Part shown: positions 51,249-57,713 of the stretch, in pieces
Numbering within the stretch: the stretch's first letter is position 1
Layout of the letters: each line of letters starts with the position of its first letter
Assembly (NCBI GenBank): GCA_030429735.1
Contig: JAUIET010000005.1
Coordinates: forward strand, 263,905 to 327,904
DNA from: Gammaproteobacteria bacterium
GTDB taxonomy: Bacteria; Pseudomonadota; Gammaproteobacteria; Pseudomonadales; JAUIET01
Reading direction: 5' to 3'
Length of the DNA stretch: 64,000 nt
Notes under the pieces: generated by a model
Databases searched by the model: none
What the model was told of the DNA's origin: nothing
What the model saw: the letters and a program-made list of their open reading frames with translations, nothing else
Position numbers and translations under genes: made by a program

Positions 51249-51914
51249 ATGTCAGGTACAGGCACTGCCGCGGCTACGCTGCGGATCACCGAGATATTCC
51301 ATTCCCTGCAGGGCGAGAGTCGCAGTGTGGGTCTGCCCACCGTGTTTGTTCGTCTTACCGGTTGCCCCATGCGGTGTGTGTACTGTGATACCGCGTATGC
51401 ATTTACGGGTGGCGAGGTTCTTCCCGTTGAGCACATTATTCGTCAAGTAATGAGTTATTCAGCAAACCACATTACCGTTACCGGTGGTGAACCTTTGGCA
51501 CAGCCGAACTGCTGGTTATTACTCAGTCAGCTCTGTGACAGTGATCGTCATGTGTCATTGGAAACCGGCGGCGCTGTTAGCATTGCCGATATAGACGATC
51601 GCGTGAGTATCGTTCTTGACATAAAAACACCGGCATCGGCCGAGTTAAACCGTAACCATTGGCCAAACATCGAACGACTGCGCGCGCATGACCAGGTAAA
51701 GTTTGTGATTTGTAACCGCGACGATTACGAATGGGCACGCTTCAAACTTGATGAATTGGCGCTTGCCTCGCGGGTGGAGGAAGTGCTTTTCTCACCCAGT
51801 CACGGTGTGCTCGAGCCGCGTGATCTTGCAGAGTGGATTCTGCGGGATGGCCTAAACGTGCGAATGCAACTGCAGATGCATAAGTATCTGTGGGGTGACA
51901 AACCGGGGCATTAA
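51249..51914 (+). CDS. queE: 7-carboxy-7-deazaguanine synthase QueE
   Basis: 221 residues. The radical-SAM cluster motif is CPMRCVYC (Cys39, Cys43, Cys46). [24 protein letters not shown] and [11 protein letters not shown] are family blocks. It makes the deazaguanine core of queuosine. Its stop shares one base with the queC ATG, as expected for consecutive pathway steps. Confidence 0.94.
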
Positions 51915-52639
51915 TGACCACCAGCAAGAAGGCCAACAGGGCCGTCGTTCTGCTGTCAGGTGGGCTGGATTCCACTACTGTACTGGGAATGGCTGTAAAT
52001 CAAGGCTATGAGTGCTATGCACTCAGTTTCGATTACGGGCAACGGCATCGATCAGAGCTGCTTGCTGCGCAACGAGTTGCCTCCAGCTATGCCAACGTGG
52101 TGCATAAAACCATTCGGCTGGAGCTGGGCGATTTTGGTGGTTCAGCCCTTACTGATAACACCATCGATGTTCCCGATGCGTCGCCAGATGCCGAAGAGCA
52201 CATTCCAATCACTTACGTGCCCGCCCGAAACACCGTGTTTCTATCGCTGGCCGTTGCATGGGCCGAGGTGCTTGACGCTCAGAGTATATTTATCGGTGTA
52301 AATGCCGTGGATTACTCCGGCTACCCGGATTGCCGGCCGGAATTTATACAAGCCTTTCAACGGGCCGCACGACTGGGCACCAAAGCTGGTGTGGAAGCCG
52401 ATAACGATGAGCAGGCCCTGCGCATTGAGACTCCACTGGTCGATCTCAGCAAGGCCGACATTATTCGGGCTGGCATTGCCCATGGAGTGGACTATTCTCT
52501 GACTGTAAGCTGTTATCAGGCCGATGCCCAGGGTGCTGCTTGCGGCCGTTGCGATAGTTGCTATTTGCGCCGCAAAGGCTTTGATGAAGCGAATGTAGCC
52601 GACCCCACCATTTACACCAATGGTCCGGGGATCGGATAA
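51914..52639 (+). CDS. queC: 7-cyano-7-deazaguanine synthase QueC
   Basis: 241 residues. [17 protein letters not shown] is the ATP-pyrophosphatase loop, and SFDYGQRH and [13 protein letters not shown] follow. The zinc site is [17 protein letters not shown]. It converts carboxy-deazaguanine to the nitrile preQ0. Last protein-coding gene before the terminator and tRNA-Lys. Confidence 0.95.
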
Positions 52640-52689: not shown

Positions 52690-52708
52690 GGGCCGTTAGC
52701 TCAGTTGG
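52690..52708 (+). repeat. 19-nt copy of the tRNA-Lys 5' end
   Basis: GGGCCGTTAGCTCAGTTGG is identical to the first 19 bases of the tRNA gene at 52831. No anticodon or T-arm follows, so it is a fragment. The 122-bp spacer to the real tRNA contains an 8-bp hairpin (CGAATGTC/GACATTCG) and an imperfect stem next to the tRNA. It may be a duplication remnant or part of a tRNA-linked repeat family. Confidence 0.7.
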
Positions 52709-52830
52709 GTGAGGCCGACCGAATGTCAACAGACATTCGCAGCGAGCCGAACGCCGAGACAGGAAGTCGAGGCCGGTGTTGATCAAGGCACAAAAGTCGC
52801 GCCAGGATGGCAAGCGCAAAAATCCTCCTG

Positions 52831-52906
52831 GGGCCGTTAGCTCAGTTGGTAGAGCAGTTGGCTTTTAACCAATTGGTCGATGGTTCGAATCCATCACGGC
52901 CCACCA
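52831..52906 (+). tRNA. tRNA-Lys (anticodon TTT)
   Basis: A complete cloverleaf: acceptor GGGCCGT/ACGGCCC, D-arm GCTCAGTTGGTAGAGC, anticodon loop CTTTTAA with TTT at 52864-52866, T-arm with GGTTCGAATCC, discriminator A and an encoded CCA at 52904-52906. The gene follows queC as in Pseudomonas. Its antisense strand encodes the end of the recombinase to the right. Confidence 0.97.
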
Positions 52907-54419
52907 TTTCATTTATTGACTCCGAGAATCCCCGTAACACCTTGAAAGGTAAGGTGGTTTTTGCGGTTCTATAACCGTCATTTGGCACATATGTCAGGCG
53001 GTCTGAAAAAGCCATTTTTAACACGGCATGTTGGTTCTCTAATGGCCCTTTAACCCATATTTTATAGGGGTTTTCGAGGAATTCGAGACCGGTTCTATAA
53101 CTTTCGCTAAGGCCTCTCAATGGGCTGCCAGTTTTAGCCATCTTTTCCTGTAAAACGATCTTTTCATCCTCCAGTTTTTCTATCTTTCTTTCGTAGTTCT
53201 TGATGACAGAATCTGAAGTTGTCTCGACAATTCTATCCAGCAATCTCGCTATCTCAGTGTCAATTTTCCGTTCCTGTGCTTGGAGGGTTTTCACTCGTTC
53301 GCCCTGTTGCAAACTGCGATGCTTCCATAAGCTCTTAAACATGCGCTCGACTATTGAGATAACCTTTGTCGTTGGTGTCATACTTTTGAGAATCTCCCCA
53401 AACTCAGTTTCTATAACGTCGCGCTTTATAGCCTTACCGAAAAACTCACATTGCTTATTCTGGCACTGGTAATACGGATAGCGCTTGTTGCGCCCTTTTG
53501 CCCAGTAAGCTGTGAGAGGCTTCGAGCAGCGACAATCAACGAAGCCCCTCAATAGGAAGTCAGCATTGATATCGGCACGCTTTGGAGCCTTTGCACGTCC
53601 CTGCAGTATTTCTTGATTTTTCAGATAAGTCTCGAAGCTTATGAGGGCTTCGTGCTTCGCCAATCGGCGAGATACACCCCACGCGGGATATTCGAGGTAA
53701 CCTGCGTAAAACACGTAGGTCAACATGTCATGCACCGTCTGAGCTGATACTCTGCCGCTCGCACCACGCGGATACTCGGGGCATTCTTGCAGAAAGCGTT
53801 GTACTTCCGCTTTCGTCTGAAACCTTCCCTGAGAAAAACCTACCAATGCTTCGCGTACAATCGATGCTACTGGCTCCTTTAGAAGGATCTTACCGCTATC
53901 GCTCTTGGTGCCAATAAATTGGTAGCCCTTAGGCACGGGGAATTGCCAATAGCCCATTTCAAGCTGGGCTTTCATTTTTTGCTTCGTTTGACGACGACCC
54001 TGCTGGCGTTCAAGCTGGCCATTGGCAGCCATCATCGTTTCCATGAATTGCCCCTCGGGCGTATCTTCGAACTTAAAATTCAGACATTCCACGGTTGCTC
54101 CGTATTGAGCGAGTTGGGAGCGAAGTTGCCAATGAAATACTGTGTCTCTCGCAAATCGCTTGAGATCATCGAATATCACGACATAATTGGTTTTTGAATT
54201 TACATCCAGATAATTCAATAGAGAGACCATTCCAGGCCTGTTCATATAGTCTCCTCCACCTGAGGCATCGTCAGGGAATACATTTTCGACTACGTAACCG
54301 TTTCGCTCGGCATATTGACGGCACCGCAATTCCTGTGAATCGAGCCCACCGCCTTCTATGACCTGCTTGGTTGTCGAGACACGACAATAAACTAGTGCTT
54401 TCTTAGGTGTGTCATGCAT
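52842..54419 (-). CDS. Large serine recombinase (site-specific integrase)
   Basis: About 525 residues from the ATG at 54419, with AAAGG upstream; a start at 54437 is also in frame. ALVYCRVSTTKQ gives the catalytic Ser15. FDDLKRFARDTVFH and LERQQGRRQTKQKMKAQLEMGYW belong to the resolvase domain and hinge. The Recombinase domain is followed by a zinc ribbon (DCRCSK...CQNKQC) and a coiled coil (ERKIDTEIARLLDRI). The last ~21 codons, GRDGFEPSTNWLKANC and onward, are the antisense of tRNA-Lys and the stop lies in its D-arm, so the C-terminus depends on the integration site. It is the likely integrase of the island to the right. Confidence 0.92.
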   Translation of the reverse strand: MHDTPKKALVYCRVSTTKQVIEGGGLDSQELRCRQYAERNGYVVENVFPDDASGGGDYMNRPGMVSLLNYLDVNSKTNYVVIFDDLKRFARDTVFHWQLRSQLAQYGATVECLNFKFEDTPEGQFMETMMAANGQLERQQGRRQTKQKMKAQLEMGYWQFPVPKGYQFIGTKSDSGKILLKEPVASIVREALVGFSQGRFQTKAEVQRFLQECPEYPRGASGRVSAQTVHDMLTYVFYAGYLEYPAWGVSRRLAKHEALISFETYLKNQEILQGRAKAPKRADINADFLLRGFVDCRCSKPLTAYWAKGRNKRYPYYQCQNKQCEFFGKAIKRDVIETEFGEILKSMTPTTKVISIVERMFKSLWKHRSLQQGERVKTLQAQERKIDTEIARLLDRIVETTSDSVIKNYERKIEKLEDEKIVLQEKMAKTGSPLRGLSESYRTGLEFLENPYKIWVKGPLENQHAVLKMAFSDRLTYVPNDGYRTAKTTLPFKVLRGFSESINEMVGRDGFEPSTNWLKANCSTN

Positions 54420-54753
54420 TGTTTTGCCTTTCGTCATTAGCGGGTTTAACTGCTCTCTGAAACTCGTGCGCTATAGCTTCCGGTTTTACCTCTGAAGTGG
54501 AATCTCTGTCAAATCTGTTGGAACGGGATTCACTGAAGAGCTGCACTGTGTCCAATCCCCAACCCAGATCTACGAAGGCAGACATAATATTCCACAGGGT
54601 GCGCAGCATTTCGTCTTTCTGTTCGTCGCTCATATCAAATTCGGCGAGGTCGCCGCGATATTCGTCCAAGTCGAGCGAAAGCGGGGCTGTTGATTTTCTA
54701 TTATGTGCCGCGTTTTCTTTGTGCTGTTTTGTGTCTAAGGGTAAATTCATCAC
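54412..54753 (-). CDS. Small acidic protein upstream of the recombinase
   Basis: 113 residues, starting at 54753 (or the adjacent ATG at 54750) after GAGAGG. The central MSDEQKDEMLRTLWNIMSAFVDLGWGLDTVQ looks conserved; I recall similar small proteins encoded directly before recombinases in other Proteobacteria, but could not check this. It overlaps the recombinase start by eight bases, so the two are co-translated. A role as recombination directionality factor or partner is speculation. Confidence 0.72.
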   Translation of the reverse strand: MMNLPLDTKQHKENAAHNRKSTAPLSLDLDEYRGDLAEFDMSDEQKDEMLRTLWNIMSAFVDLGWGLDTVQLFSESRSNRFDRDSTSEVKPEAIAHEFQRAVKPANDERQNNA

Positions 54754-55907: not shown

Positions 55908-57650
55908 TTATCGGCCAAGGTTGATTTTGACTTTCTTTAGAAACGGCTTGCCGTGAAACGGATTGATCCCAGCCTTACTTCTCCAAGGCTCTATTTCCGC
56001 ATAAGAAACAGGCTCAAATAAGATCGGTGGGGAATTACGCACCATCAATATTCCGTATTCAGTGCGGCGGATCGCATCGGCCTCCATGAGCGATCTTGAA
56101 GATTCTGAAACCTGTTCCTGCAATCCGCCGTCTTGCGCATGCCCCGATGTGCTGGTGACAATCACGGCCTGCTTGCCAAACATTCTTTCAAGCAATTCGA
56201 GCGTCTTGGGTGAACGTTGCCCTGGCAATATCTGCTTTATTTCCGTCTCGGACAGAAGTGTTTCAACAGCAGTTTCGCCGTAAATCCGTTCGAACGCATT
56301 TATGTCCTGAAAGATCAGGTGAAGACGGATGCCGTAGGATCGACCCCAAGTCAGCAAATTGACCAGATCATGAATTTTGTAATTCGTTGCCTCATCCATA
56401 ATGAAATACACGGGCTTATTCTTATCGGGATGCCGTTTCATTGTGGTCAGAGCACACCACTGAATGAGGCCGACATAGGGCTTGTAAATTTCCATGCGGC
56501 TTGAATCAGCGACGATAAAAAGGCTCATAATCCCTTCCTTCAATTCATCCATACGGAATGTGGAGCGCCCCATAGCTGGAGCCAAGCGCCCGAAGGCAAA
56601 AGGCGCAAGTGATTGCTGTGCGCCAACCACAAAGGAATCAAAGGTGCGTGTGTCTGGCCTGTTCATGAGGTTCAGGAGGTTCTGTGCTCGCGCTCGGAAC
56701 CAATGACAAAACTCCCCCAAATCCTGAGGATCGTGTTTTTGTGCCCAAGCGGTTTGCTCAATGGGCATCGGGCCATCGGGTAATGGTTTGCCCTTCATAT
56801 CCACACCAACAACCCAGCGCAGATTGGCGTCTAATGATTGCTGGTTTTGTATCAAGAGTGCGACGGAAGAGAGCGTCGCGTCATATTCTTCGACCATAAC
56901 CTGCAAGAGGGCGGCATCAGAGATAATGTCGCGCCCACCTTCACGGAAATAGGTGTTATCACTGCTGCTTTCCGCAGGCTCAGGGAATATCTGAGAGGCG
57001 ATCTCTCTCAGATCGTCAGGGATATCACGAAGGCCACCTTCGCGATGCAGGCTGTCGGTAATCATGTCCAGTGGGTTGTAACTGTCCCCCTGCCCAAGGA
57101 TCGCGCTCCAGAGCTTGCTGGGATTGAGCACTCTAACGCTCTCGCCCATGGCTCTGAGTGCCAGCAGCATGATGCATGCAAGCTCTCCCTTAAAATCCGC
57201 AATCACCTTGGAATTTCGGATGGAAAAAATATTTGTGATGACCGCATAAATGCCTTTTCCAGATCCGGCGGGTGCTATCGTAACTGCATTGGAGGCGTAT
57301 TCTATGAACAGCGAGAACTTTGAACGAAGCGCCGAGCGGCCCCAGAATGGCCCTTCCTTGGGCCTGCTGAGCATTCCTTTCAGATCTCCGCGATTTGCCC
57401 AGCGGGCAGTGCCTTCTCTGCCCGTTGTTGTGCGTGCGCCGTTCCAGTCGATGGCCATTGCAATGAGTTTCAGCCCTTCTGTGAGCAAGCGCATGAAGCA
57501 TATCGCTCCGATACCGCCAATAAGCGCAGGCAATGGCTGCAACTGCCCATCTATTCGCAATGGGCCTAGTTTGGAATAGAGCCACAGGCTCAGACATAGA
57601 TAAATCAGCGGCAGAATAATGCTCGGGCGCGAGCGATCATGTGGGTGCAT
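55908..57650 (-). CDS. Type IV secretion coupling protein (VirD4/TraG-like)
   Basis: About 580 residues from the ATG at 57650, better spaced from GGGAGG than the ATG at 57656. Two N-terminal membrane helices (SIILPLIYLCLSLWLYSKL and LIGGIGAICFMRLL) precede the ATPase domain. Walker A is APAGSGKG (near residue 130) and Walker B is VYFIMDEATN. GRSYGIRLHLIFQDINAFERIYG resembles the Gln-containing motif of coupling proteins. It would bring DNA-protein substrate to a mating channel. Relaxase and channel genes are not in the window. Confidence 0.88.
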   Translation of the reverse strand: MHPHDRSRPSIILPLIYLCLSLWLYSKLGPLRIDGQLQPLPALIGGIGAICFMRLLTEGLKLIAMAIDWNGARTTTGREGTARWANRGDLKGMLSRPKEGPFWGRSALRSKFSLFIEYASNAVTIAPAGSGKGIYAVITNIFSIRNSKVIADFKGELACIMLLALRAMGESVRVLNPSKLWSAILGQGDSYNPLDMITDSLHREGGLRDIPDDLREIASQIFPEPAESSSDNTYFREGGRDIISDAALLQVMVEEYDATLSSVALLIQNQQSLDANLRWVVGVDMKGKPLPDGPMPIEQTAWAQKHDPQDLGEFCHWFRARAQNLLNLMNRPDTRTFDSFVVGAQQSLAPFAFGRLAPAMGRSTFRMDELKEGIMSLFIVADSSRMEIYKPYVGLIQWCALTTMKRHPDKNKPVYFIMDEATNYKIHDLVNLLTWGRSYGIRLHLIFQDINAFERIYGETAVETLLSETEIKQILPGQRSPKTLELLERMFGKQAVIVTSTSGHAQDGGLQEQVSESSRSLMEADAIRRTEYGILMVRNSPPILFEPVSYAEIEPWRSKAGINPFHGKPFLKKVKINLGR

Positions 57651-57713
57651 AGGCATAGCCCTCCCGTAGTGAGAATGTTCAGAGATTGGAATCCGCGCGA
57701 GAGCGCGGAGGTT

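Follow-up and report, generated by a model that had tools for sequence, protein, structure and literature searches.

Antisense tRNA ends and T-loop-like internal repeats in the genes of a family of large serine recombinases

The locus analysed here raises the question of why the gene of a large serine recombinase ends inside a tRNA gene, and whether the protein tail encoded in this way has a meaning of its own. In the window (the whole stretch of DNA that was analysed, 64,000 nucleotides), an intact tRNA-Lys gene, the target gene, is located at 52831-52906 on the forward strand (ARAGORN 52831-52906, Rfam 52831-52903), its lysine identity and its anticodon TTT being those assigned by ARAGORN. 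On the reverse strand, an open reading frame with a PF00239 domain encodes a large serine recombinase of 531 aa (52842-54437), for which a second methionine at 54419 may be the true start. The C-terminal codons of this frame are antisense tRNA-Lys (52842-52906, reverse strand): the frame crosses the 3' half of the tRNA gene, and its stop codon corresponds to tRNA positions 12-14 in the D-arm. The overlap of 65 nt with a stop in the D-arm, as described in the initial annotation, was confirmed by the ORF and tRNA calls.

The PF00239 resolvase domain of the recombinase was found with an E-value of 7e-25. In 55 sequences the residues Y17, R19, V20 and S21 of the YxRVS motif, the serine of which we take to be the catalytic nucleophile, were invariant, as were the Zn-ribbon cysteines C302, C304, C325 and C330. 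The scores for PF07508 (20.8, cut-off 21.1) and PF13408 (20.9, cut-off 25.3) both stayed under threshold. In the structure model, which was good for the protein as a whole (mean pLDDT 84), long helices at residues 357-405 and 409-435 were counted as the coiled-coil feature. Serine integrases were the top fold matches over a whole-length alignment, with an E-value of 2e-18, a TM score of about 0.4 and a large rmsd.

For the family survey, a search of 390 genomes of the order gave recombinase matches in 8, including the window's own genome, which carries a second family copy at a tRNA-Arg. An alignment-based scan of public genomes gave at least 522 relatives at E 1e-3, the best 80 of which were used, and a scan of viral contigs gave 24 matches, the 14 strongest of which were used; with 7 loci from the order search, these make 101 family loci. 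Two of the loci come from one genome and some are near-copies (L057/L060, L076/L078, L141/L142), and the tRNA share given below applies to these 101 top loci rather than to more distant relatives. An intact tRNA gene was present antisense at the recombinase 3' end in 78 of them, the window's included, and ten isotypes were represented (Arg, Ala, Leu, Thr, Val, Met, Tyr, Lys, Phe and Ser). ARAGORN called 77 of these genes as tRNA; the remaining one (L131), called as tmRNA, is Tyr-like and was relabelled tRNA-Tyr. The overlap opens with TGG, the CCA of the tRNA, in 78/78 loci, and the tRNA is read in one codon phase in 70 of the 78, in a second in 8 and in the third in none. Of the 23 loci that lack an intact tRNA, 20 still have a tRNA 3' end in this position, either partial or cut off by the contig end, by a criterion of at most 4 mismatches of 18 to a family core, the count being one without a shuffled baseline.

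At one further locus (L012, L037 and L038), about 10 kb (G106:C6 32462-42475) with an integrase-like ORF, taken by eye for the tyrosine type, part the family recombinase from what is probably its tmRNA target. The recombinase of the L012 region keeps a 25-nt remnant of the tmRNA as its tail, the tmRNA identity being judged by eye. At another locus (L095 5526-5806), three tRNA-Thr copies with a spacing of 103 bp are found directly behind the recombinase, and at the sibling element in the window's own genome (L019, C22) a decayed second 5' half of tRNA-Arg adjoins the intact gene.

As a contrast set, 26 loci of other PF07508 recombinases of the order were fetched, 23 of which were readable, no ORF being chosen in three. 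A tRNA lay within 300 nt of the 3' end in 5 of the 23, so a second lineage has a similar tRNA habit. These serine recombinases (L254, L255, L256, L257 and L258), which end at or in an antisense tRNA (Met, Leu or Asn), apparently form a separate lineage. Like the recombinase of the window family, those of L254, L256 and L257 (tRNA-Met) and of L255 (tRNA-Leu) have a C-terminus that enters the antisense tRNA, and in the three Met loci the frame is like that of the family, with tails ...VAGAGFEPTTFGL and the like. They differ from the family in their strong PF07508 match, and no T[CA]GAAC hexamer, a repeat of the window family discussed below, was found at the corresponding internal positions.

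According to the initial annotation, the attachment site was probably inside the integrase gene. Far ends were searched in 22 elements, over 19-137 kb of the island side each, and in five of them the tRNA 3' end recurred as a direct repeat, at 19.0, 26.1, 35.6, 38.9 and 50.5 kb; one of the five is the tRNA-Arg sibling in the window's own genome. The far-end copy spans the part of the tRNA that the frame enters first, from the CCA into the T-loop (18-21 nt), and is exact over 18 nt in four cases, with one mismatch in the fifth. Reversed cores, used as a control in the 22 elements, gave 0 matches at up to 2 mismatches and one at 3. When 60 family cores were compared with the 22 elements, the only matches outside tRNA genes at up to 1 mismatch were the five self matches, and six further matches at 2 mismatches were taken as chance. 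In the other 17 of the 22 elements no far-end core was found, nor did the six that were extended to 97-157 kb give a core at up to 2 mismatches. In the tRNA-Arg sibling, a terminator-like sequence, taken as that of the tRNA itself, now stands at the far end of the element. As far-end tRNA copies were found in these five relatives, their attachment core is shown to be the last 18-21 nt of the tRNA, inside the recombinase gene, and their tail would be swapped on excision. A crossover at the CCA end rather than in the T-loop would make target switching simpler, but it would leave the exact 18-nt identity in four of the five pairs unexplained.

For the window itself, the core is placed by analogy with the five relatives at 52889-52906 (reverse strand), 18 nt from the CCA end to the first T-loop bases. 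The contig stops 6,998 bp beyond the window, and no second copy of the 18-nt core was present in the window's assembly at up to 2 mismatches; at 3 mismatches there were two matches, against three for the reversed control. Since its own far end is missing from the assembly, the integration of the window's island rests on analogy, which likewise supports an attachment site within this integrase gene. That no second site was found for the window would suit a mere database curiosity, in which a random frame enters a neighbouring tRNA and no island exists. Against this stand the same orientation at ten isotypes and the far-end copies in five elements, and chance overlap is excluded because an intact antisense tRNA occupies the same place in 78 of the 101 loci. 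The family data thus already contradict the curiosity, which we regard as having almost no probability.

The chromosomal left flank of the tRNA carries a gene at 51914-52639 (forward strand) which we take, from its sequence, to be queC-like. In a genome of the same genus (G003), a tRNA-Lys is located about 50 bp after the gene matching this one. In the window, a 19-nt copy of the tRNA-Lys 5' end is present at 52690-52708, where the native gene would be expected after queC, and an insert of 122 bp (52709-52830) lies between this copy and the intact tRNA-Lys. In G003, a similar insert (81%) is flanked by a truncated tRNA-His on one side and an intact one on the other, and among the 390 genomes searched, inserts of this type were found only in these two, both of one genus, with a weak match in a third. 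G003 does not provide a clean empty site, as a tyrosine integrase gene (PF00589; L243 1628-2722) is situated 25 bp from its tRNA-Lys. Because this integrase adjoins the same tRNA, tRNA-Lys looks like an integration hot spot used by more than one element.

Of the genes that would mark an integrative and conjugative element (coupling protein, relaxase and mating-pair genes), the island side encodes a VirD4/TraG-like coupling protein at 55908-57656, and no relaxase was found among the window proteins scanned (8 in one scan, 7 in another), the contig covering only the near part of the island. Further along the contig (L009 11656-18784, about window positions 63,751-70,879 and so mostly beyond the window), a gene for a CHAT-domain protein precedes QatA, QatB and an incomplete QatC, of which the first 256 residues are present, and the contig ends 119 bp after this partial QatC. 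The Qat genes on the island represent an antiphage system.

The initial annotation had further claimed that on excision the tail of the protein would be replaced by sequence from the other end of the island, and that this could switch integrase activity. The first of these claims holds by reconstruction in five relatives, where the C-terminus would be replaced on excision. In 77 integrated loci (L130, which has no stop before its contig end, was left out), the position of the stop codon relative to the core end ranges from 25 codons ahead of it to 328 codons past it, with a median of 15, and the stop precedes the core end in only four. In the other 73 the frame stays open as far as the core end, so that the target tRNA lends the tail and the stop codon while the element is integrated; in the circular form they would, according to the reconstructions, be taken from the other end of the element. 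The second claim, a functional switch of recombinase activity or stability in the integrated form, has a precedent in phage Mx8, whose target is said to be a tRNA. In this phage a tail of 112 residues is replaced by 13 residues and the enzyme becomes less active (PMC4701971, citing Magrini 1999, in the part of the paper available), and in the family the tail does change on excision in the five reconstructed cases. However, besides the wide scatter of stops in the integrated loci, the recombinases of the five reconstructed circles end 0-19 residues past the core (6-17 in the integrated forms), and no common feature was seen in the circular tails. Model confidence in the window's tail is also low, with a pLDDT of 61 for residues 511-520, 47 for 521-530 and 30 for 531. 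Since no feature of tail length or sequence is shared, the switch was rejected and is considered unlikely. The tail swap follows from the anatomy in the relatives, which does not indicate a switch.

The part of the gene that precedes the tRNA is under strong synonymous-site constraint across the family, over codons 441-510 (52908-53117, reverse strand). With the expectation taken from each gene's own codon usage, the mean z of third positions per 20 codons stayed at 0.9-3.9 through codon 440 and rose to 6.7-11.7 beyond it; the last of these bins include the tRNA itself, while codons 441-510 lie before it. Many codons of the stretch remained high when the codon usage was taken from the same stretch. 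At residue 490, in a G-x-R-T motif, arginine is encoded by CGA in 63 sequences, by AGA in 23 and by the other four codons in none, these four making up 82% of the arginine codons gene-wide, and the codon just before it, for Tyr or Phe, has T as its third base in 72/73.

These preferences coincide with copies of a hexamer, T[CA]GAAC, that is also present in the T-loop. In the window it occurs (all on the reverse strand) as TCGAAC of the tRNA T-loop at 52883-52888 (site I), and within the recombinase coding sequence as TAGAAC at 52966-52971 (site II, 83 bp from site I) and at 53092-53097 (site III, separated from site II by 126 bp and from the T-loop by 209 bp). Across the 78 loci with an intact tRNA, T[CA]GAAC was present at site III (about -192) in 62, at site II (about -65) in 69 and at the T-loop in 62; all three sites occur in 54 and none of the three in 5, while elsewhere in the genes 26 copies were counted in 101,588 nt. 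The spacing is kept as well, with 126 or 127 bp between sites III and II in 60/61 and 83 bp between sites II and I in 49/58. The frame crosses site III in either of two codon phases (29 and 34 loci), the translation being Y-R-T in one and I-E-P or similar in the other, and therefore it is the DNA and not the protein that is kept there. The T[CA]GAAC repeat is a cause of the synonymous constraint. Sites II and III were both at their usual places in 18/20 loci that are displaced from, or without, a tRNA (taken from the 23 loci without an intact tRNA, L017, L128 and L141 being left out). On the other side of the core, T[CA]GAAC near +92 and +200 was found in only 2/5 far ends, and in none of the 20 displaced loci. 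Other codons of 52908-53117, among them 455, 457, 459 and 498, are strongly constrained and are not explained by sites II and III.

Other possible sources of the constraint are an RNA element, an overlapping gene and a terminator that serves the tRNA on the opposite strand. A terminator-like hairpin is indeed formed at 52938-52956 (forward strand) by the codons of the TTLPFKVL motif, and hairpins with a dG of -5 or lower occur in 36/78 loci, compared with 25.4 +- 2.9 in 20 synonymous-recoding sets. With near-copies removed, however, the excess amounts to 31/69 versus 22.3 (z 2.4), and is no stronger than in other segments of the gene, which give z values of 2.4, 2.1 and 2.2 at offsets of 150, 600 and 1200; it is also weaker than the excess on the other strand. 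As these segment and strand controls show it to be unspecific, a tRNA terminator encoded opposite the recombinase was rejected as a general explanation. RNAalifold on 50 sequences found no conserved fold except the T-arm, and an alternative frame was open in at most 12/78 loci, so that an RNA structure or an overlapping gene behind the constraint is unsupported. Taken together, we hold these origins of the constraint to be very unlikely.

Sites II and III change together. The comparison covered the 94 of 98 loci in which the sites were clear. In 92 of these, II and III share the base that precedes the hexamer, although the tree implies 14-15 changes of this base; they share the second base of the hexamer in 84. 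In phylogenetically independent pairs, II and III agree in 5.9/6 for A, and likewise for T, before the hexamer, and in 8.0/9 for A as the second base. The T-loop and site II match at the base before the hexamer in 58/94, and the independent-pair tests for this comparison were not significant. The internal sites thus do not follow the T-loop at each base, and the way in which they are read may differ from that of the T-loop.

Which protein reads the two internal sites was approached through the residues that predict their varying bases, with the two site-encoding columns excluded (92 loci for the first base, 82 for the second). The best predictors of the base before the hexamer were residues 326 and 306 of the recombinase, near the Zn-ribbon cysteines, with MI/H values of 0.56 and 0.46. 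For the second varying base, columns 291, 295, 306 and 309, in or just before the Zn ribbon, lead, with columns 136 and 57 of the catalytic domain close behind. In plain accuracy, 326 (0.84) and 306 (0.83) compare with 0.82 for column 459 and 0.81 for column 487, the median column reaching 0.61. None of the independent-pair tests on these predictors reaches 0.05; residue 326 is never opposite, and one test on 306 was mixed (1.5 vs 0.7). The link of sites II and III to Zn-ribbon residues is therefore one of correlation only, and from the sequence data we infer that the two sites are putative accessory recombinase sites inside the recombinase's own gene.

A different protein could be involved. 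A 113-aa ORF (54412-54753, reverse strand) overlaps the recombinase start, and a homologue is found just upstream of the recombinase in 83/97 family loci, counting that of the window; under a simple rule for choosing starts, the two genes most commonly overlap by 4 nt. No match to this ORF was obtained in Pfam, PHROGs or NCBIfam, and its product is a candidate directionality factor or partner of the recombinase. Sites II and III might then be operators for this partner, or for a host regulator, rather than accessory sites. The conservation of the partner ORF would agree with this, as would the fact that II and III co-vary with each other and not tightly with the T-loop. On the other hand, the columns of the partner protein have little power to predict the site base (best MI/H 0.27, compared with 0.56 for residue 326 of the recombinase), and the hexamer is that of the T-loop, the target of the recombinase. 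We therefore consider operators rather unlikely, and retain the reading of sites II and III as putative accessory sites of the recombinase.

The architecture is kept while the target changes. On the best quick tree of the 101 recombinases, with 79 labelled rows (including L131, relabelled tRNA-Tyr, and L012, a tmRNA labelled from sequence), 32 isotype changes were counted, against a mean of 54.9 after shuffling, and 0 of 200 shuffles were as low. The targets are therefore inherited over short spans and change often. A pair from Stappia illustrates this: the recombinases differ at 7/504 residues and yet sit at tRNA-Met and tRNA-Ala, and the 46 nt of DNA that directly precede the core do not differ within the pair.

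That a serine recombinase at a tRNA 3' end is less usual, as the initial annotation had remarked, is supported in print (PMC4383910, PMC3218068): in the parts of the papers available, serine integrases were not known to target tRNA genes according to the Islander study (PMC4383910), and tRNA-targeting serine integrases are rare according to later work. As in the window family, the attP of phage Mx8 lies within int and integration replaces the C-terminal sequence, but the Mx8 enzyme is an unrelated tyrosine recombinase and its 112-residue tail is lost with a change of activity (PMC4701971, available part), whereas tail length in the window family is variable and seemingly unconstrained. The streptococcal ICEs at rumA share with the family a single serine integrase, an attachment site within the gene and a swapped C-terminus; their target is a protein gene, and no tRNA or isotype switching is described in the available part of the source (PMC4701971). 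Serine recombinases at tRNA genes are also described, in the accessible text of the respective papers, for the filamentous phage phiRSM1 at tRNA-Ser (PMC4471427), for eight Mycobacterium AICEs at tRNA-Leu (PMC3218068) and for the Paracoccus phage Pami6 at tRNA-Met (PMC6536676). Unlike in the window family, the attP of phiRSM1 is situated between two ORFs, outside int (PMC4471427, available part). For these three cases one target each and no internal repeats are mentioned in the text available, and they are set apart from the family by description only. The tyrosine-integrase islands of Islander at the T-loop sublocation of tRNA genes resemble the family in that the target gene is restored and targets are switched frequently (PMC4383910, available part). 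No account of the family, or of internal accessory sites in its gene, was found in the titles and abstract openings of the literature searched, which covered few subscription journals.

The results are probably best accounted for if the window contains the tRNA-side end of an integrated genomic island carrying a member of a tRNA-targeting family of large serine recombinases, with the family attachment core at the 3' end of the tRNA, the internal repeats as putative accessory sites and the tail as a by-product. The recombinase would recognise the T-arm at the core and may bind the two internal repeats via its Zn-ribbon domain. These repeats, as accessory sites, could set synapsis, directionality or autorepression, possibly together with the product of the small upstream ORF, which may be a partner, for instance a directionality factor. 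The tail encoded by the tRNA would be a tolerated feature and would not act as a switch. More tentatively, and with a likelihood that we place short of even, the family may have an extended attachment site within its own coding sequence, where two accessory sites that mimic the T-loop co-evolve with the Zn ribbon and serve as a topological filter as in resolvases. With 10.5 bp per turn of the helix, the distances of sites II and III from the T-loop correspond to about 8 and 20 turns. To our knowledge, large serine integrases are held to need only an attP of about 50 bp and no accessory sites, and for this reason an extended site would be a new mode of control.

The 101 loci belong to one family which is almost always found at tRNA genes, and which changes isotype yet keeps one architecture. 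The family thus provides a natural set of serine integrases whose targets differ and are conserved; enzymes of this class are employed in genome engineering. In view of the internal repeats, it may be asked whether accessory sites, on which resolvases rely, can also serve a large serine integrase; if this is true, control by accessory sites would be combined in this family with easy switching among tRNA genes.
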